The notes beneath the pieces were generated by a model, which made no database searches, was not told where the DNA came from, and saw only the letters and a program-made list of their open reading frames with translations. Both the position numbers and the translations under genes were made by a program. Below are positions 9,080-33,618 of a stretch of DNA of 43,438 nt, in pieces. Origin of the DNA: Burkholderiales bacterium (GTDB lineage Bacteria; Pseudomonadota; Gammaproteobacteria; Burkholderiales; Ga0077523); the NCBI GenBank assembly GCA_022843925.1, contig JALHMS010000013.1, positions 98,424-141,861 on the forward strand, in the 5' to 3' direction. How positions within the stretch are numbered: position 1 is the stretch's first letter; the number at the start of each line of letters is the position of its first letter.

Positions 9080-9099
9080 TCGGCCTTAGCCGGAGGGGG

Positions 9100-9400
9100 C
9101 CACGGCCTTTGTAGGGGGGGCCATGGCCTTTGTAGGAGGGGCCCATGGCCTTTGTAGGAGGGGCCCATGGCCCCGAAAGCGGTCAATGCCGCGGAAGCGT
9201 TTCCACCGCAACCATCGCTTTCGCGGGCATGGCCCGCTCCTACAAAAGCTTGGCCAAATCCCACGACGGGTGGTGCACCCACCGGCCGTGTAGGAGCGGC
9301 CCATGGCCGCGAAAGCGGTGGATGCAAGGAAGCGCATCGACCGGAATCGTCGCTCTCGCGGGCATGGCCCGCTCCTACAAGAGCATGGCCCGCTCCTACA
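9100..9400. repeat. Composite REP/BIME-like element, copy 1
   Basis: Palindromic units similar to the Pseudomonas-type REP are arranged in facing pairs: GTAGGAGSGGCCCATGGCC..CGAAAGC and GCTTTCGCGGGCATGGCCCGCTCCTAC. Two full pairs are present (about 9140-9243 and 9290-9380), separated by about 55 bases. The outer half-units are amplified in tandem: CCTTTGTAGG recurs at 9106, 9127 and 9149, and GCATGGCCCGCTCCTACA is duplicated near 9362-9400. The element sits in the transcribed 3' region of the transporter operon, where such hairpins usually stabilise mRNA or act with gyrase/IHF. Confidence 0.85.
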
Positions 9401-9440
9401 GAAGCGTGACCAGATTCCACGATTGGTGGCGCACCAACGG

Positions 9441-9472
9441 GGGGATATACGAGGGGCCCCCCCTTGTTGGTA
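9441..9472. repeat. GGGGATATAC-hairpin companion element, copy 1
   Basis: A GGGGATATACGAGGGG segment is followed by CCCTTGTTGGTA; the arms can pair imperfectly. The same sequence occurs next to the other REP element at 11493-11526, so it is a fixed part of a composite repeat. Without a T-run it is not a clear intrinsic terminator. Confidence 0.6.
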
Positions 9473-9569
9473 CTACACGCGGGCAACCCCGCCCCGGGCC
9501 ACCGGCCCGAGAGGCGGGTATTCGGCAAGAATGCTATCGATCAACCCTCTGTATCTCGGCGTGAACCCG

Positions 9570-10334: not shown

Positions 10335-10386
10335 AGCCCGGCGCGGATATGATGTCCGGCCACGTCATCTGCACGGAGTAGACCCC

Positions 10387-18156: not shown

Positions 18157-18641
18157 AACGCTGGGACCAGCGCCCCTTCGAAATTCGGAACCTGTTCAAC
18201 CCTGCCTTCTGCGGCCTAATCCTGTTCCGCGCCCTGGACAGCTACCAGGAAGAGGATGTCCGCGGCATGCCCTTCTCGCTGTCGCTGCTGGTGCTGCCTC
18301 TGTGTCTACACAAGGACTCGCGCGAGGTGATCGCCAGCAGTCCGCGCAGCTACCTGCTCAAGACCGCGGAGAACAACCCGCAGGTCATGGTGGGATTCGC
18401 CAATCGAGTCACACAGATGCGCCCCTATTCCTTCGAGGGGTTCGGCCTGCTGATGGAAAGGGGCTGCATCGCCATTGCTGATGACGGTCGCGTCCAGACC
18501 GTGCCCAACAAGGTGCGTAAGGCCGTCACAGGAACCGACGAGACCGTCTCCTGCCAGAAAGTGGCGCGCATCGTCGGAAGGGAATTCGCGCGAATCGCCG
18601 ACCGGGTGACCATTTACACAACATTCGGGATTCGTCCATGA
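18153..18641 (+). CDS. ABC-three-component system middle component
   Basis: A 162-residue protein with the middle-component pattern: EIRNLFNPAFCGLILFRAL at the N-terminus, then MPFSLSLLVLPLCLHKDSRE, NNPQVMVGFANRV and a C-terminal region with FEGFGLLMERGCIAI, which is typically winged-helix-like. In this class of systems the middle component bridges the ATPase and the effector. It starts with GTG inside a GTGA overlap and ends in an ATGA overlap with the ATPase, so the three subunits are probably made in fixed ratio. Confidence 0.88.
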   Translation: MKRWDQRPFEIRNLFNPAFCGLILFRALDSYQEEDVRGMPFSLSLLVLPLCLHKDSREVIASSPRSYLLKTAENNPQVMVGFANRVTQMRPYSFEGFGLLMERGCIAIADDGRVQTVPNKVRKAVTGTDETVSCQKVARIVGREFARIADRVTIYTTFGIRP

Positions 18642-20584
18642 AGATCAGCTCCATCCATCTCTACAGCCACGGCGGTGAGCGCCGGGATCTCCGATTTAAG
18701 GTGGATGGGCTCAACATCATCACTGGCCGCTCCTCCACCGGCAAGTCCGCGCTTTCTGAAATCGTCGAGTACTGCATGGGGCGTTCTTCGTTCAATGTCC
18801 CCGAAGGAGTCATCCGCGACAAGGTGGCGTGGTTCGCAGTCATCTACCAGTTCGAGAGCGAACAGGTGCTGGTCGCGAAGCCGACTCCGCCCGGTGGTGG
18901 CGCCAGTTGTAGCACTGCGATGCTACGACGGGGCACTCAGTTGCCGGCACCCGAGTTCAACGACTTGGTGATCAACACCGACGACGATAGCATCGTGGAA
19001 CTGCTGTCTCGCCTGCTGGGCATTCCCGAGAACCGTACCGATGTCGCACTGGAGCACAGTCGTGACAGCTTCGATGCGAACGTCAAGCACACGTTCTACT
19101 ATCTGTTCCAGAAGCAGGGGCTGGTCGCCAACAAGGACCAGCTCTTCTACCGGCAGAACGAGCAGTTTCAGCCGCAGACGATCCGCGACACGCTGCCAAT
19201 CTTTCTCGGCGTCTCCTCACAGGACCGTTACGAACTGGAATCCAAGCTGCGCACTGCGCAGCGGGATTTGAGGATCAGCACCAAGCGTCTGGAACAAGCG
19301 CGCAATGCTGTCGATACGCTGTACGAGAAGGCCGTTGGCCTCTACTCGGAAGCCAGGGCGGTCGGTTTGATCGGCAGCCCCGAGGAGAGCCGCAATGCCG
19401 ACGCGATCATCAACGCATTGAGTTCGGCATTGTCGTGGAAGCCCGAAGCGGTACCCGGTGACGACGGTAGCCGGATTTCGCGTCTCGAGGAGGAGCTAAG
19501 CAAGTTGCGCCAGGAACGCCGCGACGCACAGACCAGGATCGACTCCGCGCGGCAGTTCGCCAAGCGGTCGGGCGGCTACGAGAGCGAGGCCGCCGAACAA
19601 GTGGATCGGCTGGCTTCGATTAAGGCGCTGCCGAGGAACCCTGACACCGGCGAGTGGCAATGGCCATTCAGCGAGCGGAACCTTGCGCTGGAATCCCCCA
19701 TCGCCACCGTCCTGCTCTCCGAGTTGGAATTGCTCGACAAGGAATTACGCATCGCGACTGGCCAACGCCCAAAGCTCGAAGCCTATCTCACCGAACTGGC
19801 CAGCAAGGTGGACGAGATCGCAGGTGCCATTTCGCAGACGGAAGCGGAGCTAGTTGCGGCGATCTCGGCCAACGAGGTCATTGCCCAGATGGGATCTCGC
19901 AACAACGCTGCTGCGCGCGTGGTTGGCCGAATCAGCTTGTTCCTGGAAACGCTTCTCCCGAATGAGGATCTTGCGATGCTGGAAGCGGAGAATCGGCGTC
20001 TCACCAACAAGGTGAAGCAGCTTGAGGACCAGATAGGCGCCGACGACAGCAACGAACGCTTGGCATCGATCCTCAACAACATCTCCGCTCAGATGACGCG
20101 GTACATTCAGAAGTTCGGCGCGGAGTTCGGCGCCTTCCCGGCGAGGCTTAACCTTCCGCAGTTGACGATCATCTTCGATCGACCCGAACGTCCGGTTCCA
20201 ATGGGTCGAACTGGGGGGGGAGAGAATCATTTGGCCTACCATTTGTCGGCATTGCTCGCCCTGCACCTGTTCGCGGCCCAGAACAAACGCCCAATCCCAC
20301 GCTTCCTGCTGATCGACCAACCCACCCAGGTCTACTTCCCGTCGGAGCAGGTGTACAAGGATGCCGGTGGTTCGGTGCAAAGGACCGAGGCCGACGCTGA
20401 CCTTAATGCGGTGCGCCGGCTGTTCGAACTGCTGCTTGAATTCACCCAAGTGGGCGTCCCGGGGTTCCAGCTAATCATCACTGAGCACGCGAACCTTCGC
20501 GAGCAGTGGTTCCAAGATGCGCTGGTCGAACAGCCTTGGACAAAGCCGCCTGCGCTAGTTCCTGAGGACTGGCAAGACAAGTGA
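18638..20584 (+). CDS. DUF3732-type SMC/Rad50-like ABC ATPase of the three-component system
   Basis: A 648-residue ATPase. Residues 1-40 give the N-terminal ATPase lobe (MKISSIHLYS, LNIITGRSSTGKSALSEI; Walker A 30-37). A long central region (about 190-480) is coiled-coil, with repeated Leu/Glu/Lys heptads (e.g. ISRLEEELSKLRQERRDAQ). The C-terminal lobe has the signature-like GRTGGGENHLAYH (523-535), Walker B FLLIDQPTQ with D560, and the H-loop LIITEHANL with H617. This is the DNA- or damage-sensing motor expected in the system. A run of eight G (20213-20220) encodes the glycines of the signature and is a possible slippage site. It is convergent with the RES-domain gene. Confidence 0.9.
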   Translation: MKISSIHLYSHGGERRDLRFKVDGLNIITGRSSTGKSALSEIVEYCMGRSSFNVPEGVIRDKVAWFAVIYQFESEQVLVAKPTPPGGGASCSTAMLRRGTQLPAPEFNDLVINTDDDSIVELLSRLLGIPENRTDVALEHSRDSFDANVKHTFYYLFQKQGLVANKDQLFYRQNEQFQPQTIRDTLPIFLGVSSQDRYELESKLRTAQRDLRISTKRLEQARNAVDTLYEKAVGLYSEARAVGLIGSPEESRNADAIINALSSALSWKPEAVPGDDGSRISRLEEELSKLRQERRDAQTRIDSARQFAKRSGGYESEAAEQVDRLASIKALPRNPDTGEWQWPFSERNLALESPIATVLLSELELLDKELRIATGQRPKLEAYLTELASKVDEIAGAISQTEAELVAAISANEVIAQMGSRNNAAARVVGRISLFLETLLPNEDLAMLEAENRRLTNKVKQLEDQIGADDSNERLASILNNISAQMTRYIQKFGAEFGAFPARLNLPQLTIIFDRPERPVPMGRTGGGENHLAYHLSALLALHLFAAQNKRPIPRFLLIDQPTQVYFPSEQVYKDAGGSVQRTEADADLNAVRRLFELLLEFTQVGVPGFQLIITEHANLREQWFQDALVEQPWTKPPALVPEDWQDK

Positions 20585-20703: not shown

Positions 20704-22197
20704 TCAGTATCGAGACTTGTGCCGTTCACTCCGATCGCGGTCGACGAGGTGGGGGGTAGTCGTCACATCGACCGCATTCACCTCGTGCACCGTCAGCGAC
20801 TGGGTGTCGACCTGGAGCGCCGGTGTGCGGAAATCAGCCTTCCAGTTTGGTTGGGCCGGCCAGTTTGGTTGATCCGGAATGTCTTCAAGGAGAACCCAAC
20901 GGTATCCATCGTCGAGGTCAATAGGCCTCGGCTCCGGCACTGCGCCGGGCGGCACCCGCTCGCTGACTGAGTACGCGGCTTCCCAGCCATCCTCGGTCCA
21001 ATAGCCCGTATCCACCTCGATCCGCGTTCCCTTCGGCAGATTCAGAGTGTCAACCCGGGCTGAGTGATGGAAGAGCACTACATTGCGCCCATCCTTCGTC
21101 TGCGGTGACGGGAAAATGATGCCGTCGAGGCGGGGCTCGTTCATCGTCGCCAAGAAGTCGGCGACAGCTTGAGTCGGCAGGTACTCGAACGCTTCATCGT
21201 CAGGCATCACCGGTCGGGCCATGCGCCCGCCAAGTGTTCGCAGGAACGCTGCTCGCTCCAGCCGTCGCTTGAGGGTCGGATCAAACAAACTTCCGGGATC
21301 GTGCACATCCTCCAGGGCTGTTAAATCCAGCAGGTGGAGCGGGCGGCCGATCACGAACTTCGCGACAACGACACGGCTGCCTACCGGTGGGCGTACCTCC
21401 GCAATCGCCACTAGCGCACGGGTGGCGCCATAGAAGACCGCGATGCCCAGGGCGTTCATACGTCCCGCGCGAGCTGCGGGCGGTGGCGGTGAGCCCAGGT
21501 GCAGGTCGGGTCGGCCGATCGCCTCCTTCAACGGGCCCTCGGCCTGGAAGACGCGCGCTCGATAGAGGTGATCGAGTGCGGTCTGCGGGCCAGCGGAAAC
21601 CACCAGCGGCCGGCCACTGTGTGTTGTGAGTTGATTGATGCCGCCGAAGACTGCGGCAAGGTGCTCGGCTGCTGCTTGGCTGAAGAAGCGAGCTTCGGTC
21701 TTGAGCGATTGTTCGAATCTGTTCCACTCTTCATGCCAGGCTTGATCGTCCGGTCCTTTCTCCTTGTAGTAGGAGGTTGGGTCAAATTCGGACTCTTCGA
21801 GCAAGGCGTCCTTGTCGAAGTCGCCGTGGCGGCCGTGAAGGATATCCAACACATCTCCTGCTGGTTCCTCATGGATTCCGGCTGCTTCCTGAATTGCCTC
21901 CAATACGGGCGCGCCGTCACGATTCCAGGGATAGCTCGATTCCCCGTCAGCCTGCATCCGTTCGTAGAGCGAGTCAGGTCCAAAAGCGGTGCGCGTGAAG
22001 TGTTCGGCGAAGGCGGTCTCGATCCGATCGGCGAATTCCTGGATCGCTAGGGACTGACGAGTCACACCACAGTATGCGCACAGGCTGGAAACGCCAGACT
22101 CCTTGACGTCCGCCGACAGGTAGGCGTCTCCGATACACGCGTGGCAGATGCGCTTGTCTGAGGTTTCATCGTCGTCCAGTTCGGTCACCCCCATCAC
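20704..22197 (-). CDS. RES-domain (NAD+-degrading toxin-like) protein with N-terminal zinc ribbon
   Basis: A 497-residue protein. The N-terminus has two CxxC pairs (C18/C21, C40/C43), a zinc ribbon, followed by a helical domain of about 130 residues of the HEPN/RES N-terminal kind. The RES domain covers about 205-380: LYRAR (R213, R215), GRMNALGIAVFYGATRALV, E267 in AIAEVRPP, and S364 in IIFPSPQ with GRNVVLF, i.e. the Arg, Glu and Ser of the family in order. RES toxins cleave NAD+. Canonical ones are about 150-200 residues and paired with a Xre antitoxin; here no antitoxin gene is adjacent. The zinc-ribbon form is probably a conflict or defence effector with built-in control. About 115 residues follow the domain. 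Confidence 0.85.
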   Translation of the reverse strand: MMGVTELDDDETSDKRICHACIGDAYLSADVKESGVSSLCAYCGVTRQSLAIQEFADRIETAFAEHFTRTAFGPDSLYERMQADGESSYPWNRDGAPVLEAIQEAAGIHEEPAGDVLDILHGRHGDFDKDALLEESEFDPTSYYKEKGPDDQAWHEEWNRFEQSLKTEARFFSQAAAEHLAAVFGGINQLTTHSGRPLVVSAGPQTALDHLYRARVFQAEGPLKEAIGRPDLHLGSPPPPAARAGRMNALGIAVFYGATRALVAIAEVRPPVGSRVVVAKFVIGRPLHLLDLTALEDVHDPGSLFDPTLKRRLERAAFLRTLGGRMARPVMPDDEAFEYLPTQAVADFLATMNEPRLDGIIFPSPQTKDGRNVVLFHHSARVDTLNLPKGTRIEVDTGYWTEDGWEAAYSVSERVPPGAVPEPRPIDLDDGYRWVLLEDIPDQPNWPAQPNWKADFRTPALQVDTQSLTVHEVNAVDVTTTPHLVDRDRSERHKSRY

Positions 22198-22397: not shown

Positions 22398-25300
22398 CTA
22401 AGCCACTCTCGCCGACGTGGCGACGGTTGCCAGAAGAGCCACCAGTTGATCCACTTGCTCTGATGCGAAGATCCCGTCCGGACCTTGTGGGGTCACGTCG
22501 GTGAATGGGGACTCGTACAGGAGTGCCGCATCCATCGAACCATGTTCGGTGAGGTGGTTGATGATCAGATTGATGAACTCAATCTGACTGCTGCCCAAGG
22601 TCTTGCCGCTCAGGAAGCCTGCGAAGGCTCCCTTCGCAGCTTCTCGATCCATCCCGACCAGCGATCGCACAAACAGTCCCAGCCCGTTGCTCTCTTCCTT
22701 CGCGCGGGCTAAGTCGTCGGGATCGCCGAGCTTGCTCTCGGCAAGCATCCGCTCGAGCTCTGCAAGGTCAGACGCAGTGAGCGGCTTGTTCATCCGAAGC
22801 TTGTGAACAGCAATGTGAGCCAGGTGTGCTCTCAAGAACGCCCGGGCCTTCGCGCGGAACTTCTCGAAGCCTTGCGGTGAGGTGAATCCTGGCAGCTCGA
22901 TGTCGATTTCATCGCCCATCGCATCGAGAAAATCTGTGTAGATCGGCCTCCGGGCCACCTTGTCGATCAGCTTTACCAGATCGCGCAATCGACGGCGAAC
23001 GGCTTCCAGCATTGGAATGGTGACGTCCTGCCACCAGTCATCGGTCTGGAGATCTTGAATCAACGACATGTGGTCACGCACCGCCGGAATTGCTGACTTC
23101 TCTTCCAGTAGCCCGGCGATCGATTTGACTTGGTCGCGCAAACGAGAGAACCCGGGTTCCGCACGCAACTGGGCTAGTTGTAGGTTCAGCACCAGCAGGT
23201 CAAACCGTTTTGCTTCTTCGCCTTCAGGTTCGATGCTGGATGGGAGTCCTGCCACTTCATGGGCGAGTTCCGATAGCGCGTCGGTTGGCAGCTTGACCCA
23301 CACGTCTGCAGCGGCGTACTTCTCCACAATGCGCCGGTGCGGCCGCACGACGAAGTTCTCAACACTCATCGCGGACACCTCGCGATGGAGCAGTGTCGCC
23401 AAGTCAGCCCGGACCTCTCGCTCGGTGGCAGGGTGACCGTAGCGGGGCGGTGCCGCCTCATGAGCAACAAGTTCCCCCTCCATGCGATGGTCAAGTTCCC
23501 CGATCAGTTCCAGGCGAGACTTGAACAACCGCTTCCCAAGGGATTCACCCAGCGAGCCCTCGGTGGTGGCCAGGTTCTGGCTGAAGAATTCCAAGTTCTG
23601 GCAGTAGTCGAAGAGATAGAACACATTCTTGTCCTCCGCCGGCGCAAACAAATCGGGGCAGAGGCGTGTTCCGCGACCTACCATTTGCCAAAACTTCGTC
23701 TTCGAACGCACGAGTTTGAAGAACACGAGGTTCACGACCTCCGGCACATCGATGCCAGTGTCGAGCATGTCCACGGAGATCGCGATGTGCGGGAATCTTT
23801 CTTTGTTCGAGAAGCTGTCGATCAGGCTCTGCGCATACTCGGTCTTGAAGGTGACGACTCGCGCGAACTCTCCCTTGAAGTGCGGGTAGTTGGCATTGAA
23901 GCGCTCGGCAATGAACTCAGCGTGCGCCTGATTCTTGGCAAACAGGATTGTCTTGCCCAGTCGGTCTCCGCCGGCCACCTTGATGCCACGAGTCATCAGG
24001 TGCTCAAGCACCTTGTCAACGGTGTCCTTGTTGAACAGCCACTTGTTGACGGCTTCGGCCTCAACACGGGCCGGTGCGCCACCTTGGTCATCCCATTCGA
24101 GCTCGTCCCACTGCTCGCGCTCGTCGTCGGAGAGCTCCGCGTACTTGATGCCCTCTCGCTGAAACTTGAGCGGGACCGAGACTGCTTTGGCTGGTACCAA
24201 GAAGCCGTCCTGGACCGCCTCCTCCAGTGAATATGCGTCTGTCGGTACCCCGTCTTCCAGTTCGAAGAGGCTGTAGGTGTTCCGATCGACTTCGTCTCTT
24301 GGTGTGGCAGTCAGACCCACCAGAAGCGAGTCGAAATACTGAAAGATCGCCCGGTACTTCTGGAAGACGGAACGGTGGGCCTCGTCGATCACTACCAGGT
24401 CGAAATGCCCAACGCCGAATCGACGCTGCCCTTCTCGCGTCTCGTCGATCAACCCCATCATCGTCGGATACGTCGACACGAAGACTCGCCCGTCGCCGTC
24501 CTTCTCGGTCACCAGGTTTACCGGGGATGCATCGGGTAGGTGACGTTTGAAGGCATTCACTGCTTGGTTCACGAGCGCCACCCGGTCTGCGAGAAACAGC
24601 ACCCGCTTCGCCCAGTTGCTGCGGATAAGCATGTCGCAAAGTGCGATTACTGTTCGCGTCTTGCCGGCGCCTGTCGCCATCACCACCAGCGCTTTACGAT
24701 CGTGGTCGCGCTCGAAGCTCTCCCCGATCCGTCGGATTGCCCGAGTCTGGTAGTAGCGTTCGACAATCGCCGGGTCGATCTCTGCCGTCGCGAGCGGTCG
24801 GCGGGACTTTCGGCGCTGAATGGCCAACTCTAGCTCTACCTTCTTCAGGAAGCCCTGAACTGGCCGGGGAGGGTAGCTGGCGTCATCCCAAATCCAGTGT
24901 TCATAGCCGTTCGAATAGAAGATCAGCGGGCGCTGGCCAAACTGCTTCTCCAGGCAGTCTGCGTAGAGCTTTGCTTGCTGCTGCCCAACCCGAGGATCGC
25001 GACGCGTTCGCTTGGCCTCTACTAGTCCGAGCGGGAGCCCATCGTCGCCCCACAGAACATAGTCTACGAAGCCGGTTTCCTTCTGGTTCGGCATTCCCCG
25101 TATCTCGAACTCTCGGTCACGGGGCTGGTCGAGCGGCCAGCCGGCCTCCTTGAGGAGGAGGTCGATGAAGTAATCACGAGTCTCGGCTTCTGAGTAGTCG
25201 TGTGTGTCGACGTGTGCCGCTGCGGACTTCTTGGCTTCTGCAACTTCGGCACGGAGGCGCGAAAGCTCCTCGTCGAGATTCGCCCTATCGGCCAAAACCA

Positions 25301-25808
25301 TGGCCAGCCTCTCGTCGCGCTCACGTAGCTGCGCTTCCAGTGCCTGAAGCTGTTCTGCGGTCTGCGTCGTCGCTGGGCCCGGGCGCGGTAGCGCCGCCGC
25401 ATCAAAGCGAAGCCCCGGGGCCGGGCGACCGACGCGGCCGTATGTGCGAGCCAGCCAGTAGGCGACATGAAAGAGTTCGCGTACCGCCACCACGGAGTCG
25501 GTGGTAGCGACCGGACGATGGCTGTGGACTGCCTGATTGCCCAACGTCACGATCACTCGTGCCTTACTGAACACTGCGTCCCCGGCTGCTTCCTTGAAAG
25601 TCGGCTCGTGGATCAACGCCGACAGGTTGTCCTGGTAGGGGAGCTTCAGGGCAGGGTCGTACTTGAACGCCCAGACAACGGCAAGTTCGAGCGCGCGCCG
25701 CGCATAGAAGCAGGCCGTCCGCGGATCGGGATGCGCTGAAGCAGCGGCGCGTTCCGCTGCTTCGAAGACGGCTGGCCATTCAGTCTTCAGGAAGGCGAAG
25801 TTGCTCAT
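22398..25808 (-). CDS. hsdR: Type I restriction enzyme, R subunit (motor/nuclease)
   Basis: An 1136-residue protein. Residues 1-125 are a DUF4145-like helical domain (YARRALELAVVWAFKYD), followed by a coiled coil (150-195). The nuclease is at about 205-310 with D249 (GFVDYVLWG) and VEAKRT (E264, K266). The SF2 motor has Walker A ATGAGKT (378-384), VIDEAHRS (D475-H478) and GLTATP (497-502). The C-terminal region matches EcoEI-type HsdR, which docks to the methylase core. It translocates and cuts unmethylated DNA. It is the last gene of the six-gene minus-strand operon, overlapping the GmrSD-like gene by four bases, so it is separated from hsdS by three other genes, an unusual layout. Confidence 0.95.
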   Translation of the reverse strand: MSNFAFLKTEWPAVFEAAERAAASAHPDPRTACFYARRALELAVVWAFKYDPALKLPYQDNLSALIHEPTFKEAAGDAVFSKARVIVTLGNQAVHSHRPVATTDSVVAVRELFHVAYWLARTYGRVGRPAPGLRFDAAALPRPGPATTQTAEQLQALEAQLRERDERLAMVLADRANLDEELSRLRAEVAEAKKSAAAHVDTHDYSEAETRDYFIDLLLKEAGWPLDQPRDREFEIRGMPNQKETGFVDYVLWGDDGLPLGLVEAKRTRRDPRVGQQQAKLYADCLEKQFGQRPLIFYSNGYEHWIWDDASYPPRPVQGFLKKVELELAIQRRKSRRPLATAEIDPAIVERYYQTRAIRRIGESFERDHDRKALVVMATGAGKTRTVIALCDMLIRSNWAKRVLFLADRVALVNQAVNAFKRHLPDASPVNLVTEKDGDGRVFVSTYPTMMGLIDETREGQRRFGVGHFDLVVIDEAHRSVFQKYRAIFQYFDSLLVGLTATPRDEVDRNTYSLFELEDGVPTDAYSLEEAVQDGFLVPAKAVSVPLKFQREGIKYAELSDDEREQWDELEWDDQGGAPARVEAEAVNKWLFNKDTVDKVLEHLMTRGIKVAGGDRLGKTILFAKNQAHAEFIAERFNANYPHFKGEFARVVTFKTEYAQSLIDSFSNKERFPHIAISVDMLDTGIDVPEVVNLVFFKLVRSKTKFWQMVGRGTRLCPDLFAPAEDKNVFYLFDYCQNLEFFSQNLATTEGSLGESLGKRLFKSRLELIGELDHRMEGELVAHEAAPPRYGHPATEREVRADLATLLHREVSAMSVENFVVRPHRRIVEKYAAADVWVKLPTDALSELAHEVAGLPSSIEPEGEEAKRFDLLVLNLQLAQLRAEPGFSRLRDQVKSIAGLLEEKSAIPAVRDHMSLIQDLQTDDWWQDVTIPMLEAVRRRLRDLVKLIDKVARRPIYTDFLDAMGDEIDIELPGFTSPQGFEKFRAKARAFLRAHLAHIAVHKLRMNKPLTASDLAELERMLAESKLGDPDDLARAKEESNGLGLFVRSLVGMDREAAKGAFAGFLSGKTLGSSQIEFINLIINHLTEHGSMDAALLYESPFTDVTPQGPDGIFASEQVDQLVALLATVATSARVA

Positions 25809-27907
25809 GCCTGACCTCCGCCCATCTGGCGCTCGAACGACTGCCTAACCAGGCCAATCACGTACGGCAGTTCGTCCAGGGTCGATAGACCCACCTCGAC
25901 GTCACCGTTGCCCCAGCGACCTAGGTTGGACACGTCCTTGCAGATGTGCCTAACGTCTTCGATCTCCCCAAACGGCATGTTCAGCGTCAAGCGCAACCGC
26001 CGTGCTTGCGGTACCACGTCCACGAAGTTCGTCTCCGCCTTGTAGGCGACGTACAGCTTGAGGAACTCCTCGGCTACGCAGGGATCCAGCGCCAACACTT
26101 CCTTCCGGAATGCGTCAAACAAGGGGCGCATCGGTGGAGCCGCGAGATACGGGTGGTCGTCGATCGTATAGGTGACCTCAGCCACCGCCCTCGGGCGGTA
26201 CGCGGCGAGTATGTCTGCTTCCACGCGCGGTGCTGCCCACACCTCAGTCGCTTTCGCTGCAAGTCGGGTGGCGCGATGTCGGATAGCTTCCTCGTTCCAA
26301 TCCACTACGTGCCCCAGTCCAGCATTCAGGCGCAGTGGGCTGTATCGAAGCCCTACCTCAGGCATGTCGCGCTTCTGCGCGAAGGGCAAGTCGCTGTATT
26401 TCGAGTTGTAGGCTGTCAACGTGAGGTTGCCGAGCGTATGCAGCCACCTCTGTTGAATCTGCTTCCATTCAGCGCCCAGTGCTGCGCGCCACTCAGGTGC
26501 CAGGTTCTGGTTCTGCGGCAGGATATGCTCGATCGTGTACTCGTCGACCGGAACGCGCTCCTTGCGGTCGTGGTTCTCCAACCGCCGCAGCCAGTAGGTG
26601 CGTCGCGCGCCGAAGTTGTAGAGGTCGCGGCTCTGCAAGTCGCGCTGAAACTCTTCGTCGGTGGGAAAACGTCGGTAGGAAGGCAACGTAAGGAAGTGAA
26701 CCTGGATGCTTTCCAGATACCTGTCCTTCTTCAGCGCTTTCGTGAACGTCGCGAACGTCTTGTTGAGGGAGTTTGTGGGAATGGCACACACCGTCCGGCG
26801 AAAGACGTACGACTCGGCCAACCGCACGGCCTCGCGCAGATCGTTCCGGTTCAGATGGCCGTCCCTGTGGTCGGCGTACAACTCCAACAGAAACGGGTAG
26901 GCCACATCCACCTTCAACTCACGGAGGTCGTGGAAGGCCAGCTTGAGTTCTGCGTCCGCTTCCGCGCCAAGCGCGATGGCGCAAAAGTAGCGGGCGAAGT
27001 TGCGGATGTCCCTGACCAAGGCTTCGACACCAGCCGCGGCGACTTCTGGGCTGCGTGCATGAACCTTGAATGCCTCGTAGACCTCGTCGATGCGCGGGAT
27101 ATCGCCCGTCTTCACTGTCAGGTAGTGTCGGATGAATGCATCGAACTGCGTGCTGTACGCCTCTTGTCCAAACTCGACCTCCATGGGGCGCCAGAACTGC
27201 TCGTAGAGCTGCGTCTGCAATTCCTGTTCGAGGCCCATCAGGATGAAGTTGCGAATCAGGTCGGCCTGGCTCAACTCGCGACCGGTTGAGTTCATGCTCT
27301 CGAAAATCAGTTGCGGGTTGTCCTGATCGCGGCTGAGCGCAATGTCTACCACCAGGAGCTTCGCCAGCCCCTTGCACACGCTGGCGAGCTCGCCGCTGCG
27401 CTCGGCTACCAACGATTCGAATAGCTTGAAGTTCTGAACGACTCGGATGGAGGAATGTTTCGGTACATCGCTACCTCCCACGATCGCTGTGAGGGACGCC
27501 TTGTCAGTCTGCGATAGAAGCAGCTTGAATCGGCGCTCTCCTTCCTCTTCCGGATTGAGTAGGTAGTAATTCCGAAGCTTGCGTGCCGAGAACCCGTCGA
27601 TGGGTTCGGTTTCTCCCAGAGCATTGGCGAGCGCCGTGATGAGCAACGTTACCGTGGTCAGGCGTTGCTGGCCGTCGATCACCATCAGTGGCTTATGGCC
27701 CGTCACCTGATAGAGACCTTTCTCGATGTAGACGATCGATCCGACGAAGTGGGCCGATACAGCATCGTTGCTGCCCGTGCGAACGATGTCGTCCCACAGT
27801 TGGCGGCACTCCTTCTCCATCCACGAGTAGGTGCGCTGATAGATCGGAATCACGAACTGCGGCGACTTCTTCAGGAAGTCGAGCAGCTTTGCCTCGGTAG
27901 CCTTCAT
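25805..27907 (-). CDS. GmrSD-like DUF262/DUF1524 protein with DUF5655 C-terminus
   Basis: A 700-residue protein. The DUF262 domain is at the N-terminus: IPIYQRTYSW (20-29), FVGSI (54-58) and the ParB-like MVIDGQQRLTT (75-85), which in GmrS/DndB-like proteins binds and hydrolyses nucleotides. A helical middle follows. The DUF1524 HNH nuclease is at about 450-515, with EHILPQ (E460, H461), HTLGNLTLT and N501. The end (about 590-695) resembles DUF5655. Relatives restrict DNA with modified cytosines or act in BREX-associated type IV restriction. Here the gene lies inside a type I operon, overlapping the GIY-YIG gene and hsdR by four bases each, so it is co-translated with them; it may attack phage DNA that escapes HsdR through base modification. 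Confidence 0.9.
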   Translation of the reverse strand: MKATEAKLLDFLKKSPQFVIPIYQRTYSWMEKECRQLWDDIVRTGSNDAVSAHFVGSIVYIEKGLYQVTGHKPLMVIDGQQRLTTVTLLITALANALGETEPIDGFSARKLRNYYLLNPEEEGERRFKLLLSQTDKASLTAIVGGSDVPKHSSIRVVQNFKLFESLVAERSGELASVCKGLAKLLVVDIALSRDQDNPQLIFESMNSTGRELSQADLIRNFILMGLEQELQTQLYEQFWRPMEVEFGQEAYSTQFDAFIRHYLTVKTGDIPRIDEVYEAFKVHARSPEVAAAGVEALVRDIRNFARYFCAIALGAEADAELKLAFHDLRELKVDVAYPFLLELYADHRDGHLNRNDLREAVRLAESYVFRRTVCAIPTNSLNKTFATFTKALKKDRYLESIQVHFLTLPSYRRFPTDEEFQRDLQSRDLYNFGARRTYWLRRLENHDRKERVPVDEYTIEHILPQNQNLAPEWRAALGAEWKQIQQRWLHTLGNLTLTAYNSKYSDLPFAQKRDMPEVGLRYSPLRLNAGLGHVVDWNEEAIRHRATRLAAKATEVWAAPRVEADILAAYRPRAVAEVTYTIDDHPYLAAPPMRPLFDAFRKEVLALDPCVAEEFLKLYVAYKAETNFVDVVPQARRLRLTLNMPFGEIEDVRHICKDVSNLGRWGNGDVEVGLSTLDELPYVIGLVRQSFERQMGGGQA

Positions 27908-28398
27908 CCCTGCGATCCTCCCTGCATCACGGGAAACGCCTTCGCGAACGCAGCCCTCACCGCCGAGAACCGCACCTGATCCAGTCGCTTGCGCGACTTC
28001 ACTGTATTCAGGAGAACATACCCAGCGGCAGTCATTGCTTCTGCAAGCGCCTTCTCCATCGCAGCCACCACGTCGCGGCGCTCGTCGTGTTGTTGCCGAC
28101 CATGAGTCAGCGACTCATCCTCGATCGGGCCCAGCGCAACGAGGCGGAATTCACACAGGGCAGGGTCAATGCCATGCGCTGTCAGGTACCGACGTAGCAT
28201 GTTGCTGTTCTTGGAGAATCCTAGGTGCTGACCCATGCGGTTGAACGGTGACTGCGCATTTGTGGATGAGCTGTCTCCAGTGCGACCCACGTAGTAGCGT
28301 GCCGCTCCGTCAGGCGGCTTGATTTCCCAGACATACAGCCAGAAACCTCGCTGGAGAATGCCACCACCAAACCGCACTTCATGCAGCAGTCCAGTCAT
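27904..28398 (-). CDS. GIY-YIG-like nuclease domain protein
   Basis: A 164-residue protein. The GIY-YIG fold is suggested by FWLYVWEI (LYV at 21-23), RYYVGRTGD (YVG 36-38, R39), an Arg/His-bearing helix FNRMGQHLG, E115 in VAAMEKALAEAM and N131 in YVLLNT, in the order and spacing of the catalytic set. It is therefore a probable small endonuclease, although the tyrosine of the first motif is in LYV form. It overlaps the start of the GmrSD-like gene by four bases and follows the X gene by 54 bases inside the restriction operon. Confidence 0.7.
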   Translation of the reverse strand: MTGLLHEVRFGGGILQRGFWLYVWEIKPPDGAARYYVGRTGDSSSTNAQSPFNRMGQHLGFSKNSNMLRRYLTAHGIDPALCEFRLVALGPIEDESLTHGRQQHDERRDVVAAMEKALAEAMTAAGYVLLNTVKSRKRLDQVRFSAVRAAFAKAFPVMQGGSQG

Positions 28399-28452
28399 GC
28401 GGCCATACCGTCTGGAATCTGGGCGTGAATGATGGGCAGCAAGGGGATTCCT

Positions 28453-29283
28453 TCAGGCTCCTCGATACACGATATCGGCGTCGAGTGCGCTACTGAGGTA
28501 AGGGGTGAACCCGGCAAGCAAGATGGACATGGCCACCATGTCGCGCATGTCCACAGCGCGAAGTGCATTGGCCGGCGTGCCGCCGTGACGGATGCCAGGG
28601 TAGTCAGACGCGAAGCCGTAGAGGTTCTTCATTGCCTCCCTGAGCTTTTCATGTGGCCAAGTGCCGACCTGATTGCAGATGGCCCCGAGCGTTGTGCCGG
28701 TCACCCCCGGTGCTGTTCGTCCGATGGCCTCCAGCAGGTTCACCTGCTTCTGGATGCAGGTCTTGATACGCCCGTCGGCGCAGTCGTGGCGCAGATCGCG
28801 CACCGCGTTGTCAAAGTCCTTCATCAACGCGTCTAGGTGGGCATCCTGGCCGGTCAGCACGCGCATGTCGCGCACCAGGCTCGCGAAAATCCCAGGGAGT
28901 GTCGGGCACAGGGTGCACGGGCGGCGCAGGTCGTAGCGCAGGCTAAACTTATCGACGAAAGCCGCGAGCAGGTAGAAGTAGCGATTGGAAAGCTCGTCGC
29001 CAGCGAATTCGTCGAGTGCGGAGTGAGCCGCTTCGAGGAACGCCACGAGCGCGCGCTCGCCGGCAAAGTCGCTCGTCCCCGTCTTCTCAAACGCCTCACT
29101 GCTCTGCATGCGGTTGTCGATGATGTCCGCCAGAGCTTCGATCGACGGCTGGATCTTCAGTCCTTTGGCCAACTCGCGGTACAGCTCGCAGAAGATGTCC
29201 TCAGGGACGCCTTCATGGTCGATCAGCGGCAGCCAGATCTCGCGCCAGGTCTCGGACCACACGCCGATGAACTCGCCGCGCAC
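28453..29283 (-). CDS. Hypothetical operon protein X, possibly Abi/HEPN-like (276 aa)
   Basis: An all-helical 276-residue protein starting with GTG one base after the hsdS stop. The C-terminal part, NLYGFASDYPGIRHGG, then RAVDMRDMVAMSILLAGFTPYL, resembles the C-terminal abortive-infection/HEPN-type helical domains, in which a conserved Arg/His pair sits in such a loop. A CTLC pair occurs near the middle. I cannot assign a family with certainty. Its position directly after hsdS argues for co-expression with the restriction system; it may be an RNA-cleaving backup or a regulatory partner. Confidence 0.7.
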   Translation of the reverse strand: MRGEFIGVWSETWREIWLPLIDHEGVPEDIFCELYRELAKGLKIQPSIEALADIIDNRMQSSEAFEKTGTSDFAGERALVAFLEAAHSALDEFAGDELSNRYFYLLAAFVDKFSLRYDLRRPCTLCPTLPGIFASLVRDMRVLTGQDAHLDALMKDFDNAVRDLRHDCADGRIKTCIQKQVNLLEAIGRTAPGVTGTTLGAICNQVGTWPHEKLREAMKNLYGFASDYPGIRHGGTPANALRAVDMRDMVAMSILLAGFTPYLSSALDADIVYRGA

Positions 29284-29284
29284 G

Positions 29285-30499
29285 CTACAGCTCTCCCAAG
29301 AAAGCGCACTGCTGGAGTGAGGCGAAAAGGCAGTCCAATTCGGCTACCGAAGCACGCATCGACTTCTTCACCTCGTTGATTCTCGCCACACGCCGGACAA
29401 AGCGGAGTTGCGATTCGATAGGTGGTAGCAAAACGCGGAACTGCTCGACGACACGCATATAGATCGTCCGATGCGTGGACCCTGGAGCCAGCGATAGCAA
29501 ACGCTGCCGCGAGGTGATGAGTGCCCACATGAGATAGGTCGGATCAAGCAACGGCCCACACACCCAATTCATGAAGTCTTGGGATGTCGCCATCTCGCGG
29601 CCCATCACAGTCGCGAAGCCAACAGATGCAGTTCGCGAAAAGCACACCGTTCCCTTTGGCAACAGCACCGACGACGAATTCTGAATGCCGAGCGGCGTAA
29701 TGTTCTGCAGGGTGCTCGTCGCTTCGGTACCGTCGAGCGAACGAATGTCGGTGAGACTGATCCACGGGATGTCGCCATTCCAGTACTCAGCTCGTTCACG
29801 ATCCGGAGTGTGTCCAGTCGCGAGGCGAGCCACATCGGTGAGCAGTATCCATGAGCATCCTCGCGGGACACTTGCGTAGTGCGGCTTCGTGTCGACGGCC
29901 GGCGCGCCCAACTTCTCACCAAAAATCTCGAAGAATATTGATTTGGCGAGGGTGTCGAGCTGGGCGAGGGCGGCGCGGCGCTTGACCCGCAGGGCGTCCG
30001 CTTTGTCCAGGATCTCCGCGATCCGCCGCTGCTCGGGGAGGGGTGGTAGCGGGACCTTGAGATTACCGAGTTGAGCGAGGCTCAAATTTGAGATCGTCCC
30101 GGTGACCGTAGCGCCGCGCATCTGAGCTTGCGCCGCGAAACTCTCCAGCCAGTGTCGAAGGAAGGGGCGATGAATATCCTTCTTTGGCCGAACTATCGCG
30201 ACCGCTTGGTTGCAATTCAGCGGAGGTACATCTTCTGGGACGACGCCAACTCTACCGATAGTACCGGCAATTGAGACAAGTACATCGCCGGGACAAATTT
30301 GCGAACGTTCTAGTATCCGATGCGTGCTCTCGTCAATGAATAGCGTGTTCTGATCAAGCGTGACGGTACCGCCACCGATATTCTGAACTCGGAGAAAAGG
30401 AACTCCGGACTCGGTGAACTCGTGTCCGAGAGTGGTCGGCGTAGTACCCTTGGTAATCACTTCGCAGTGACCTGCAAGCCGTTCAGTTGGCCAAGTCAC
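29285..30499 (-). CDS. hsdS: Type I restriction-modification specificity subunit
   Basis: A 404-residue protein with two target-recognition domains, each followed by a conserved helix. TRD1 is about 1-150 (VPFLRVQNIGGGTVTLD, GDVLVSIAGTIGRVGVV). The central helix is PLPEQRRIAEILDKADALRV with the following long spacer (about 150-200). TRD2 is about 205-355 (WNGDIPWISLTDIRSLDG), and the distal helix LLPPIESQLRFVRRV closes the pseudo-dimer. It sets the bipartite recognition site for both methylation and restriction. It overlaps hsdM by four bases. The target sequence cannot be predicted. Confidence 0.95.
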   Translation of the reverse strand: MTWPTERLAGHCEVITKGTTPTTLGHEFTESGVPFLRVQNIGGGTVTLDQNTLFIDESTHRILERSQICPGDVLVSIAGTIGRVGVVPEDVPPLNCNQAVAIVRPKKDIHRPFLRHWLESFAAQAQMRGATVTGTISNLSLAQLGNLKVPLPPLPEQRRIAEILDKADALRVKRRAALAQLDTLAKSIFFEIFGEKLGAPAVDTKPHYASVPRGCSWILLTDVARLATGHTPDRERAEYWNGDIPWISLTDIRSLDGTEATSTLQNITPLGIQNSSSVLLPKGTVCFSRTASVGFATVMGREMATSQDFMNWVCGPLLDPTYLMWALITSRQRLLSLAPGSTHRTIYMRVVEQFRVLLPPIESQLRFVRRVARINEVKKSMRASVAELDCLFASLQQCAFLGEL

Positions 30500-32034
30500 T
30501 GGAGCATACCCTCCAGTTCCTTCATCCCCCGCTGGATCTCCTCCTCCAGCTTCGCAAGGTCGGCGAGGATCTCCTTTGGCGGGCGGTGCTCGACCGCCTC
30601 GTGCACCACTTCCTTGTAGCGGTTGAGTGAGAGATCGTAACCCTGTGCAGCAATGTCGTCCCTTGGCACGCAGAAGCTCTGCGCAGTGCGCGGGCGTTCG
30701 CGCTCGGCGCTGTTACGCCCGGCCCAGCGCGCTATCACGTCGGGTAGGTTGTTCTTGGCGTGATCGTCCACGCTGAGAGCAGTGCGCGGCACGGGGCCAA
30801 GTCTGTCGTCCGGTAACAACGCCGTCCGCTTGTCGTCGAGGCTCCAACCGTCGGCCTCGACGTCGTAGAACCACACCTGGTCGGTGCCGCCGGAGTTGGT
30901 CTTGGTGAATAGCAGGATCGCGGTGGACACGCCGGCGTAGGGCCTGAACACGCCACCGGGTAGCTTGACCACCGCGTCGAGCTTCTGGTCTTCGACCAGC
31001 ATTCGGCGCAGTTCCTTGTGCGCAGTGCTGGAGCCGAACAGCACGCCGTCGGGCACGATCACCGCGGCGCGGCCGCCCGGCTTGAGCAGGCGCAGGAAGA
31101 GCGCGAGGAACAGCAGCTCCGTCTTCTTGGTCTTGACGATCTGCAGTAGGTCCTTGGCCGTGTTCTCGTAGTCCAAGCTACCGGCGAAGGGCGGATTTGC
31201 CAGAACCAGTGTGTACTTCTCTTCCTCCCCAGCGTGGTCCTGCGCCAGCGAGTCGCGGTAGCGGATGTCGGGGTTCTCCACGCCGTGCAGCAGCATGTTC
31301 ATGCTGCCGATGCGCAGCATGGTGTTGTCGAAGTCGAAGCCGTGAAACATGCGGTGGTGGAAGTGCTCGCGCAGCTTCGCGTCGTGCAGAATGTTCGGGT
31401 GGCGCTCGCGTAGCACCTCGCCGGCCGTCACCAAAAAGCCGCCAGTCCCGCAGGCCGGGTCGCAGATCACGTCGGTTGGCTCTGGCGCGGTCAGCTCCAC
31501 CATCAGGCGGATGATGTGGCGTGGCGTGCGGAACTGGCCATTCTGGCCGGCGCTGGCAATCTTGCCGAGCATGTACTCGTAGACGTCGCCCTTGGTGTCG
31601 CGGTCTTCCATCGGCACTGCGTCGAGCAGGTCTACGACCTTCGAAAGCAATGCAGCGGTGGGGATAGTGAATCGTGCGCCCTCCATGTGCTTGGCGTAGG
31701 TCGAACCCTCTCCGCCCAATGTCCGAAGGAAGGGAAAGACATGATCGTCGACCACCGTGAACATCTCAGCCGGCGCAAAGTTCTTGAACCGCGACCAGCG
31801 CAGCGAGTTGTAGTCGCGGCCCTTGGGATCAGTTCCTTCAGGGAACGTGCGCCGCTCCATCGGCCGTCCCAAGCGTGCGGCTTTGTTCTCTTCCAGCGTG
31901 TGCAGGTCGTCCAGTCTTCGGATGAATAACAGGTAGGTGATCTGTTCGATGACCTCCAGCGGATTGGAGATGCCACCCGACCAGAATGCATTCCAGATGG
32001 TGTCGATCTTGTTCTTGATGTCGCCGGTGATCAT
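30496..32034 (-). CDS. hsdM: Type I restriction-modification N6-adenine methyltransferase
   Basis: A 512-residue methylase. The HsdM N-terminal helical domain (about 1-140: IWNAFWSGGISNPLEVIEQI, LLFIRRLDDL) is followed by the SAM-binding motif DPACGTGGF (192-200) and the catalytic NPPF (280-283) of gamma-type N6-adenine methylases. C-terminal features include GGVFRPYAGVSTAILLFTK. It protects host DNA and is needed for HsdR activity. A GAGAGGA ribosome site lies just before the ATG. It is the first gene of the minus-strand operon; its promoter should be in the roughly 100 bases between it and the T5orf172-like gene. Confidence 0.96.
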   Translation of the reverse strand: MITGDIKNKIDTIWNAFWSGGISNPLEVIEQITYLLFIRRLDDLHTLEENKAARLGRPMERRTFPEGTDPKGRDYNSLRWSRFKNFAPAEMFTVVDDHVFPFLRTLGGEGSTYAKHMEGARFTIPTAALLSKVVDLLDAVPMEDRDTKGDVYEYMLGKIASAGQNGQFRTPRHIIRLMVELTAPEPTDVICDPACGTGGFLVTAGEVLRERHPNILHDAKLREHFHHRMFHGFDFDNTMLRIGSMNMLLHGVENPDIRYRDSLAQDHAGEEEKYTLVLANPPFAGSLDYENTAKDLLQIVKTKKTELLFLALFLRLLKPGGRAAVIVPDGVLFGSSTAHKELRRMLVEDQKLDAVVKLPGGVFRPYAGVSTAILLFTKTNSGGTDQVWFYDVEADGWSLDDKRTALLPDDRLGPVPRTALSVDDHAKNNLPDVIARWAGRNSAERERPRTAQSFCVPRDDIAAQGYDLSLNRYKEVVHEAVEHRPPKEILADLAKLEEEIQRGMKELEGMLQ

Positions 32035-32138: not shown

Positions 32139-32666
32139 CTACGGCCGCTTCACAGCATTGAACGGCCAAGCCGCCGGCGTGACGTCACCGTGTGGTGCGG
32201 ATGTGGCATGCCCCGGCGGTTGGCTGGACGGGCCGGAACGCAGGGAGGTGCCACATCGAGTGCACGTGTTGACATAGGAGTACTTCGTGCCGCAACTGGG
32301 ACAGGTGCCGCCCATCACTGGTGGGAGCGGGGCGATGGACTCTGTTCCTCGCGTCCACCGAACCTCGATCTCGGCCCCGCACAACGTACAGGCCTCCTCG
32401 ATGGCTTTCGCTGCTTGCGCGGAAGCTACTCGGAAGAACTCCCGCTGAGCATGCACTCTGTGCTCGTTGAGGGCGCCATGTACGGTTGCTTCGACCTCGA
32501 ACGGCTTCTGTATTGAACAGAAATAGACGACGTCGAAGGGCGTTGGTACGCCGGAAGAGAACAACTCGTCGGCGCGTGCCCGCGGGTGCTTCTCGGAGGC
32601 GCCGATCTTCACAATGCCCAGCAAGGATGGATTCTCGAGGATGTAGACGAATCCCGACATTTTCAT
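32139..32666 (-). CDS. T5orf172/MUG113-like GIY-YIG protein with zinc ribbon
   Basis: A 175-residue protein. The N-terminal GIY-YIG variant reads SGFVYILENPSLLGIVKIGA (VYI 7-9, KIG 20-22), with KHPRARADELF, an acidic FEVEATVH (E59) and HAQREFFRV, the usual MUG113/T5orf172 line-up. A CxxC pair at C93/C96 and a zinc ribbon at C122/C125-C135/C138 follow, then a Pro/Gly-rich tail. It could nick DNA or act as a regulator. The ATG at 32666 overlaps the stop of an upstream frame (ATGA); ATG 32660 has better spacing to GGGAG and is the alternative. It lies upstream of hsdM on the same strand. Confidence 0.8.
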   Translation of the reverse strand: MKMSGFVYILENPSLLGIVKIGASEKHPRARADELFSSGVPTPFDVVYFCSIQKPFEVEATVHGALNEHRVHAQREFFRVASAQAAKAIEEACTLCGAEIEVRWTRGTESIAPLPPVMGGTCPSCGTKYSYVNTCTRCGTSLRSGPSSQPPGHATSAPHGDVTPAAWPFNAVKRP

Positions 32667-33130
32667 GATCTCCCGCAACTCTTGCCCGCGAGTCTAATGG
32701 ACTTGGAGGGGGTAGCCAGCCCGCGTCGAGGAGGGGGCTGGAGGGCCAGTGCGATCACATCTATGCGCTTCTGGCGTGGGTACGCCCATCTCGTCGAATC
32801 AAGGCCAAGCGTTTTAGCCAAAAGCTTTCGCAACTGCAACGCCGAGGTGCTTGGGCTGACATCGGCTGCTGCACCATCTCCAGTGCGCTTCCGGTGGACG
32901 GTTGCCGCTGGCCCCTTGAGCCAATCGTCGACCTTGCGCAACAGCCGTGTGTGTAGGCAGAAGGTGTTCTCGATGTAATACCTGCTCCATGGCTCTGGGC
33001 AAGAAACGGCAAACCAGGGCGGGGCACGCGAGTGACAACTCCATAAAGATGACGGCGATCGATTCGGATTGGCCGCCTCGCAGTTGTGGGAAATTCAATG
33101 GGTTAGCGGTTCCCCACTAATGGGGGACAT
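32663..33130 (-). pseudogene. Decayed gene upstream of the T5orf172-like gene
   Basis: A frame open from 33094 to 32663 (about 143 codons) has protein-like composition: SPSSLWSCHSRAPPWFAVSC, then YYIENTFCLHTRLLRKVDDWL. Its TGA overlaps the downstream ATG (ATGA), as in real coupled genes. It has no usable start except a late TTG at 32941. An in-frame ATG at 33130 is followed after ten codons by a TGA (33095-33097), so a nonsense change may have inactivated it. The family is not recognised. The alternative is that it is only a long open frame at high GC. Confidence 0.4.
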
Positions 33131-33264
33131 GAATCGCTGTACAAATTCTCTTGCCAGGTCTGACGCGTTTTGCCCCTCCGAGGGGCAAACGATGGGCAAG
33201 TGATTGCCGATCCAGGCGTCCATGCATCCCCTCTCAAACAAGGATTACCTTGCAAGACGACATC

Positions 33265-33618
33265 ATGGAACACCTGGCCATCGACGCCGGACATCGGACG
33301 ATCGGACAACTGATAGCTGAGCGGCGCGAGGCGCTACTGGAGATTCGACGATTGCGGGCCCTGGTTCTCTCGGCACGCGATGCACGTCTGCCCCTGGAGG
33401 TGCCTCGCCCTACCGTGGTCGCTCTGCCACCACCAGTTGGACGATTTCTCAATCTTCGAGACGTCTGTACGAGGCTGCGCATATCCCGTTCGTCCGTCTA
33501 TCTCTGGATCTCCCAAGGGCGGTTTCCGGAGCCGGTGCGCCTGGGGCCGCGCGTCTCGCGGTGGCGAGCGGACGACATCCTTGGATGGGAGGCCGGCTTC
33601 CCGAGGCGGGCTGGGTGA
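33265..33618 (+). CDS. AlpA-like helix-turn-helix regulator
   Basis: A 117-residue protein with an N-terminal charged helix (GQLIAERREALLEIRRLRAL) and a C-terminal AlpA/MerR-type domain: FLNLRDVCTRLRISRSSVYL, WISQGRFPEPVRLGPRVSRW, RADDILGWEAG. The order HTH, aromatic Trp-x-x-x-G-x-FP, wing with RW, then the I/L-x-x-W helix is characteristic of AlpA-family phage and island regulators that activate integrase or excision. A TTG at 33250, five bases after AAGGA, may be the real start and would add five residues. It is the only plus-strand gene in the right third of the island and ends one base short of the convergent HEPN-like gene. Confidence 0.82.
   Translation: MEHLAIDAGHRTIGQLIAERREALLEIRRLRALVLSARDARLPLEVPRPTVVALPPPVGRFLNLRDVCTRLRISRSSVYLWISQGRFPEPVRLGPRVSRWRADDILGWEAGFPRRAG

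Follow-up and report, generated by a model that had tools for sequence, protein, structure and literature searches.

Type I restriction-modification (R-M) enzymes methylate host DNA as the complex HsdM2S and cut unmethylated DNA as HsdR2M2S, and the recognition domains of HsdS undergo exchange. Embedded defence genes are known from type I operons, and passengers have seldom been told apart from genes coupled to the enzyme. One embedded gene, prrC, has its place between the counterparts of hsdS and hsdR in its operon. Here we analyse a 43,438-nucleotide stretch of a Burkholderiales genome (GenBank assembly GCA_022843925.1, contig JALHMS010000013.1, positions 98,424 to 141,861; hereafter the window), which carries on its minus strand a type I operon of the order hsdM-hsdS-X-GIY-GmrSD/DUF5655-hsdR, X standing for an unannotated gene of 276 amino acids (aa), GIY for a GIY-YIG-like gene, and GmrSD for a type IV-like enzyme gene. 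Comparison of loci separates one gene, X, which judging from its gene neighbourhoods seems locked to hsdS, from slot genes that differ from locus to locus and look like passengers.

PrrC is reported to be linked without exception to a type Ic R-M system (PMC2610378), and it is described as a HEPN-type effector that the R-M enzyme keeps silent (PMC3710099). In the pairing of PrrC with the type Ic enzyme EcoprrI, the effector gene lies inside the hsd locus, and X has the same locked linkage; however, PrrC has an N-terminal ABC ATPase and X has none, X is AbiJ-like without the Rx4-6H motif, and the silencing of X is our proposal. AbiJ is itself classed as a HEPN family, PrrC-like coupling has been proposed for HEPN proteins in R-M operons, and AbiJ proteins lacking N-terminal domains are said to favour R-M operons (PMC3710099); X matches AbiJ_NTD4 proteins, but its N-terminal part is its own and has no Pfam match. 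AbiJ also appears in a list of Staphylococcus aureus systems (PMC13216270), and no description of X was found in the open-access papers searched. For TgvAB, encoded in the type I operon of Vibrio cholerae VPI-2, both the type I and the type IV activity have been shown and complementarity against unmodified and modified phages has been proposed (PMC11411939). The likeness to the window is that a GmrSD-family enzyme is embedded in an hsd operon, but TgvAB consists of two proteins, whereas the GmrSD protein of the window is one chain with a DUF5655 domain, closest to PADLOC Orf5 and HEC-06, and is accompanied by X and GIY. In Campylobacter, the DUF262 protein RloF is encoded between hsdS and hsdR (Miller et al., cited in PMC4619093); these R-linked ORFs (rlo; ORF, open reading frame) occupy the same slot with other companion genes, and the passage on them does not name X or GIY. 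The same slot in enteropathogenic Escherichia coli (EPEC; RRDM island) holds DarTG2, toxin-antitoxin cargo rather than GmrSD, GIY, or X, and a second gene pair, and the hsdS-hsdR site is there called a potential recombination hotspot (PMC12255303). A GIY-YIG gene of 277 aa lies next to hsdS on the Lactococcus garvieae plasmid pLG9 (PMC4420470); the table passage that describes it lists only hsdS, and it is likened to GIY by description alone. In the relevant passage of PMC8432527, GIY-YIG figures only as a search term.

All six ORFs of the operon were found where the earlier note on this DNA had placed them, with intergenic distances of −4 (hsdM/hsdS), +1 (hsdS/X), +54 (X/GIY), −4 (GIY/GmrSD), and −4 bases (GmrSD/hsdR), and we agree with that note in regarding them as one tightly packed operon. 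Since parts of the gene set recur in other genomes, the gene order is no accident of reading a single sequence; X, GIY, and GmrSD were seen together in the window only.

X (28453..29283, minus strand) was traced in genome_contigs, a set that represents 84,980 species by a single genome each; a scan of it with an alignment of three X proteins yielded 21 loci. Together with a Ruegeria plasmid, one viral contig, and the window, these make 24 X loci, among which two that had been reached twice (L044 = L053 and L010 = L050) were each entered once; the scans of genome_contigs and of viral contigs used two conserved peptide patterns each and favour close relatives. X stands behind hsdS in all 24 full-length loci, directly in 21 and with one gene between in 3, and so shows the constant type I operon linkage reported for PrrC. 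The distance from the hsdS stop to the X start is 2 bases in 15 of the 24. An hsdS ORF upstream of X on the same strand was identified by BLAST in 20 of the 21 genome_contigs loci; in the remaining locus, L031, the contig has only 216 bases ahead of X, which encode sequence resembling the HsdS C terminus through its stop. The intervening gene in the three indirect cases (L037-L039, positions 9198-10004) encodes a 267-268-aa protein of the Ymh family (Pfam E 5.7e-42 or better in all three). The full order of these operons is hsdM-S-Ymh-X-GmrSD-hsdR, and Ymh is a published HEPN family. Two loci, L049 and L050, have hsdR first (R-M-S-X); X overlaps hsdS there by 4 bases, and their enzymes are distant from those of the window (30-31% identity for HsdR, 36-37% for HsdM). 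By record title, the hosts include Gammaproteobacteria, Rhodocyclaceae, Accumulibacter, Paracoccus, Sphingomonadaceae, Deltaproteobacteria, Nitrospira, and a Methanosarcina metagenome-assembled genome (MAG), among others, a range that comes partly from MAGs and in which contamination of the Methanosarcina MAG is possible. In searches of whole genomes, X was found in 6 of 274 in a first set (two full-length, four the C-terminal part only) and in 3 of 398 in a second (two full-length, one C-terminal with a stop).

X also diverges in step with the enzyme. Across 14 loci of the order M-S-X-R, pairwise distances of X correlate with those of HsdM (r = 0.85) and HsdR (0.93), to be compared with 0.93 between HsdM and HsdR, and the correlation with HsdS is weak (0.21, Mantel p = 0.03). 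With all 16 loci of the test, the values are 0.83 for X-HsdM, 0.89 for X-HsdR, 0.98 for HsdM-HsdR, and 0.42 for X-HsdS; the other eight X loci (L031, L033, L036, L040, L041, L045, L047, and L079) were left out for a gene that is missing, split, cut, or interrupted by a stop. The presence of X was then mapped on an HsdR tree of 42 rows, 35 of them of M-S-R order, drawn from 47 candidate loci and the window and omitting L029 (fused ORF), L045 and L047 (contig ends), L049 and L050 (far HsdR), and L036 (no HsdR on the contig). X requires 4 changes on this tree against a shuffle mean of 11.7, and none of 200 shuffles was as low. Any other cargo requires 10 changes against 9.6 when shuffled (151 of 200 as low), and GmrSD gives a weak signal, with 5 changes where shuffling gives 6.5 and 11 of 200 shuffles as low. 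The tree comes from a quick search with Shimodaira-Hasegawa-like approximate likelihood ratio test (SH-aLRT) support only, and its rows derive from the X and HsdR searches, so that it speaks to signal and not to the frequency of X; L040 was scored as having X despite a stop, and the GmrSD score takes in an L034 protein whose C-terminal domain is below threshold. At the level of sequence comparison, the meaningful contrast for the co-divergence of X is the other cargo, in which such a tree signal is missing. Only 2 of the 19 M-S-R loci from the HsdR search contain X, and operons without X carry HsdR proteins 54-62% identical (L009, L015, L051, and L052); the dependency therefore appears one-sided, in that X seems to need the operon and not the reverse.

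To what kind of protein X belongs was approached by profile and structure comparison. The window protein has no Pfam match of its own, and no match to a named AbiJ N-terminal domain (Pfam AbiJ_NTD1-5) was obtained with any of 20 X proteins. PADLOC PDC-S32, in turn, matches 20 of 20 X proteins scanned at E 0.001 or better. Comparison by hhalign of the X alignment (A4, comprising 19 of the 21 genome_contigs loci and the window and leaving out L036, where X is cut short, L040, which has an internal stop, and Ruegeria) with four AbiJ_NTD4 proteins gave 97.6% probability and E 4.1e-12, strongest in the C-terminal 100 residues, against 0.1% and 1.3% for two control alignments. All four target proteins carry Pfam AbiJ_NTD4, no hsd genes were found around any of them in the 10-14 kb read, and they share with X an invariant adjacent pair, R232-H233. 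By these profile comparisons, X is AbiJ-like. Its AlphaFold model (predicted local distance difference test, pLDDT, 81.2; predicted template modeling score, pTM, 0.62) has a helical C-terminal part. X gave no match among PDB sequences, and the window's X and GIY proteins gave none in PHROGs, where L031 gave three chance-level matches. Kinship to the Ymh family was considered for X and rejected, no match being obtained by hhalign. We likewise rejected the identification of X as a canonical HEPN RNase, on the motif and on a Foldseek search that returned nothing significant. The earlier note had given X the part of an RNase-like fallback, which is reasonable in view of the AbiJ kinship, but neither the Rx4-6H motif nor the fold search supports an RNase, and RNase action by X is an extrapolation from that kinship.

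Taken together, the findings are best explained by an exchange slot, a restriction-coupled effector, and exchangeable nucleases, an explanation to which, drawn as it is from gene neighbourhoods and alignments, we give about an even chance as a whole. The hsdS-hsdR junction of an M-S-R operon would be the exchange slot for defence genes. X, translated directly behind HsdS, would most likely bind the HsdM/S (or R) complex, be kept inactive by it, and act once the restriction enzyme has been disabled or overwhelmed by a phage, the target of X probably being RNA or another nucleic acid reached through the AbiJ-like part. GmrSD would be an independent, exchangeable type IV-like nuclease directed against modified DNA, and the GIY-YIG-like protein a second exchangeable nuclease. 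X would thus work like PrrC though it is no PrrC homologue, and this PrrC-like role, which we favour, we hold at evenly balanced odds. Should X be guarded by restriction in this way, it would be triggered by phages whose anti-restriction proteins defeat type I enzymes. More tentatively, and with the chances tilted against it, X may represent a new class, a restriction-coupled suicide effector silenced by HsdM/S and fired by anti-restriction attack, a second and independently evolved PrrC whose operons then collect nucleases.

Several observations weigh against the coupled-effector explanation. Relatives of the C-terminal part of X alone occur away from hsd genes, as in L011-L014, where none of the four has hsd genes in 10-14 kb (L089 left out), and 22 of the 24 X loci come from the two-pattern scans, which distant relatives away from hsd could escape. 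The HEPN RNase motif Rx4-6H occurs in at most 5 of 20 rows of X and is not conserved; Foldseek with the X model gave no significant PDB match, the HEPN structure 1wol ranking 33rd with E 4.4; and X lacks a PrrC-type ABC ATPase, Pfam giving nothing in the window protein and, in 20 members, 12 weak families of which none is an ATPase. Co-divergence with HsdM and HsdR is also expected from plain joint inheritance of neighbouring genes.

In another account, X serves the methyltransferase or restriction complex as a fourth, accessory subunit that regulates it or aids its assembly, and is not a toxin. The fixed, tight place behind hsdS, kept also where hsdR lies upstream, the co-divergence with HsdM and HsdR, and the want of a canonical RNase motif would all suit a subunit. 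Yet the operons of L009, L015, L051, and L052 manage without X, so that it is not needed by all (an obligatory subunit was rejected on this ground), and the AbiJ kinship and the PDC-S32 matches point to a defence effector; we consider a subunit role unlikely, though worth keeping in view.

The contents of the slot were read in loci found with HsdR, namely 17 of 37 plasmid matches and 24 of 25 genome matches (the remaining one being the window). These gave 19 M-S-R loci with a visible junction, 14 on plasmids and 5 in genomes; the Ruegeria and Thioclava plasmids, first reached through X and GIY, are both also in the HsdR list. The slot is occupied in 14 of the 19 and empty in 5, and it holds X in two, GIY in two (one together with X), GmrSD in one, and other genes in the remainder. 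In L019, L021, and L029 the slot genes lie on the opposite strand, and L017 has only small unannotated ORFs. Cargo seen in M-S-R operons includes SLFN_AlbA_2/HATPase_c_4 genes (L030, L032, and L048 by Pfam; L040, outside the Pfam scan, looks alike), Fic (L031), and AAA_14-DUF4143 (L055) and, by record annotation, XisH/XisI, VapC, HTH with PIN, DUF4238, DUF2569, and a helicase between transposases. L054 carries DUF3800, AAA_15, and HNH genes at 8035-11004, which may form an ATPase-HNH defence system. The gene that overlaps hsdR by 4 bases is GmrSD in the window, L007, L037-L039, and L043, GIY in L044, and X itself in L041 and L045-L047. The combinations seen are X with GIY, X with GmrSD, GIY alone, X alone, and other cargoes.

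Such diversity is what one would expect if the junction were simply a recombination hotspot in a defence island, its three genes being there by location only and with no functional coupling. That 14 of 19 slots are occupied by very different genes speaks for this account, as does the description of the site in PMC12255303, and it suits GmrSD and the other cargo well. It suits X less, since X is behind hsdS in 24 of 24 loci, even where no hsdR follows, and changes in step with HsdM and HsdR, and for the three genes together we regard location alone as improbable.

The GmrSD gene (25805..27907, minus strand) encodes a 700-aa single-chain protein with both DUF262 and DUF1524 (GmrSD_N 2.9e-34 and GmrSD_C 3e-25, each past its curated Pfam cut-off), a C-terminal DUF5655 domain (1.6e-13), and the motifs IDGQQR and EHILPQ; in PADLOC it matches Orf5 (2.7e-189) and HEC-06 (4.6e-63). 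Twelve plasmid matches were found at 54% identity or more, and seven were examined. Only the Ruegeria gene lies inside an hsd operon; the others, in Sulfitobacter, E. coli, Planktothrix, Picosynechococcus, Aminobacter, and Arthrobacter, lie outside, the Sulfitobacter and E. coli genes being near, not inside, other type I genes. The copy in an E. coli record (L082, 7875-10094) is split into two ORFs and is a neighbour of, but not embedded in, a different type I locus, which runs on the opposite strand. Among the 21 genome_contigs X loci, GmrSD is present in four (L037-L039 and L043), and L034 has a different GmrSD_N protein. From this distribution, GmrSD looks like an exchangeable module.

GIY (27904..28398, minus strand) encodes a protein of 164 aa that we regard as a predicted small nuclease. 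The window protein has no Pfam match and so falls short of the curated GIY-YIG threshold; Pfam GIY-YIG was the sole family found in its alignment, in three of the five members with a best E of 0.035. Residues Y22, Y36-V37-G38, R54, H58, E115, and N131 are invariant in all five rows, and the predicted strand (E) and helix (H) order is E18-27, E34-39, H51-59, H67-74, E83-94, and H101-124. GIY-YIG nucleases have a scheme of Tyr-Tyr, Arg, His, Glu, and Asn residues and the order beta-beta-alpha-alpha-beta-alpha, and the protein fits both. Foldseek with its model (pLDDT 72.9, built from 5 sequences) gave a best E of 0.22, with none described as GIY-YIG in the best 50 of 354 matches, and two chance-level matches were obtained among PDB sequences. 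The GIY-YIG identity put forward in the earlier note is thus supported by the residue pattern, the structural order, and the weak Pfam matches of relatives, and not by Foldseek or by the window's own Pfam result, and we call the protein GIY-YIG-like.

GIY lies behind hsdS or X in six of seven loci, with X in only three, and has both X and GmrSD alongside only in the window. Relatives stand behind X in L031 and L044, a Thioclava plasmid has hsdS-GIY-hsdR, and two viral contigs (L077 and L078) have R-M-S-GIY and then two ORFs; the exception is an Agrobacterium plasmid, where GIY is beside a DNA methyltransferase gene unlike this kind of hsdM. The two ORFs of the viral contigs encode proteins of 559-579 and 307-310 aa, and genes for an AAA ATPase (559 aa) and a protein of 308 aa come directly after hsdS on a Methylocella plasmid (L027). 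In whole genomes the gene is rare, with 2 of 299 in one set (the window and L076, a weak match at E 9.3e-4 that was not taken as a relative) and 1 of 385 in a second.

The earlier note had made its reading depend on the three extra genes not standing apart from hsd loci in most genomes, and linkage to hsd holds for X (24 of 24) and GIY (6 of 7) and fails for GmrSD (1 of 7 plasmid loci). Its idea of type I restriction layered with an embedded type IV-like enzyme is sound, plausible on the TgvAB precedent, and already in print, but no fixed three-part unit emerges. We accordingly think it very improbable that the three genes form one co-adapted programme, with unmodified DNA, modified DNA, and an RNase fallback as its layers: the six genes are tightly packed, and in V. 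cholerae the embedded TgvAB is active against phages whose DNA is modified, while tgvAB by itself protected 10- to 100-fold less against several phages than did a strain carrying a larger part of the cluster (PMC11411939), a hint that the host operon assists, but no second locus with X, GIY, and GmrSD is found among the 24 X loci, partial sets and other cargoes occur, and the HsdR tree carries no signal of cargo presence and only a weak one of GmrSD alone.

The core genes hsdM, hsdS, and hsdR lie in one locus with intact domains (Pfam, PADLOC, and motifs), and the system is a type I system of M-S-R order, for which methylation and ATP-dependent cutting are predicted from the genes. hsdM (30496..32034, minus strand; 512 aa) encodes the methyltransferase subunit, with Pfam N6_Mtase (2.8e-62) and HsdM_N and the motifs DPACGTGGF and NPPF, and overlaps by 4 bases hsdS (29285..30499, minus strand; 404 aa; Methylase_S 1.4e-31), which encodes the specificity subunit. 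hsdR (22398..25808, minus strand) encodes the 1136-aa restriction and translocase subunit, with ResIII (5.3e-36), EcoEI_R_C (1.6e-24), HSDR_N, and an N-terminal DUF4145 (9.1e-6), and matches PADLOC REase_I (3.5e-165). HsdR, HsdM, and GmrSD all contain short motifs of the kind found in active enzymes. Promoter and terminator scans were uninformative (0 promoters found against 2.4 expected by chance, 8 terminators against 7.9). DUF4145 is listed among HEPN families (PMC3710099). Its His (HsdR residues 87 and 95 are concerned) is kept in 42 of 42 HsdR rows, and the position eight residues before it is Arg in seven of seven R-M-S rows and replaced in 19 of 19 X rows and in 5 of 16 M-S-R rows without X. 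A tie between X and loss of this Arg was rejected, since the supported branches yield just 3 independent pairs and the sign test gives p = 1.

The operon lies in a region of lower G+C (0.57-0.63 at 17 to 35 kb, with 0.65-0.70 before 8 kb and after 35 kb and a mixed 0.61-0.67 at 8-17 kb). A tyrosine integrase with Arm-DNA-bind_3 (11776-13005, plus strand) and an AlpA regulator (33151-33618, plus strand) bracket the defence genes, which suggests a P4-like integrative element; no tRNA gene was found in the window. An ABC-3C system at 16933-20584 (plus strand), comprising CTD7 (407 aa), MC3 (162 aa), and a DUF3732/LmuB-like ATPase (648 aa) with successive 4-base overlaps, is a separate defence system in the same island. 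Just downstream of hsdR, at 20704-22197 (minus strand), is a gene whose 497-aa product contains a RES domain and matches HEPN_RES_NTD1 weakly. A T5orf172 protein, of the GIY-YIG superfamily, is encoded at 32139-32678 (minus strand). Neither this nor the RES protein has a BLAST match in the 21 genome_contigs X loci. The T5orf172 gene shares the strand of hsdM and precedes it by 104 bases, and the T5orf172 protein ends in a zinc-ribbon-like tail.

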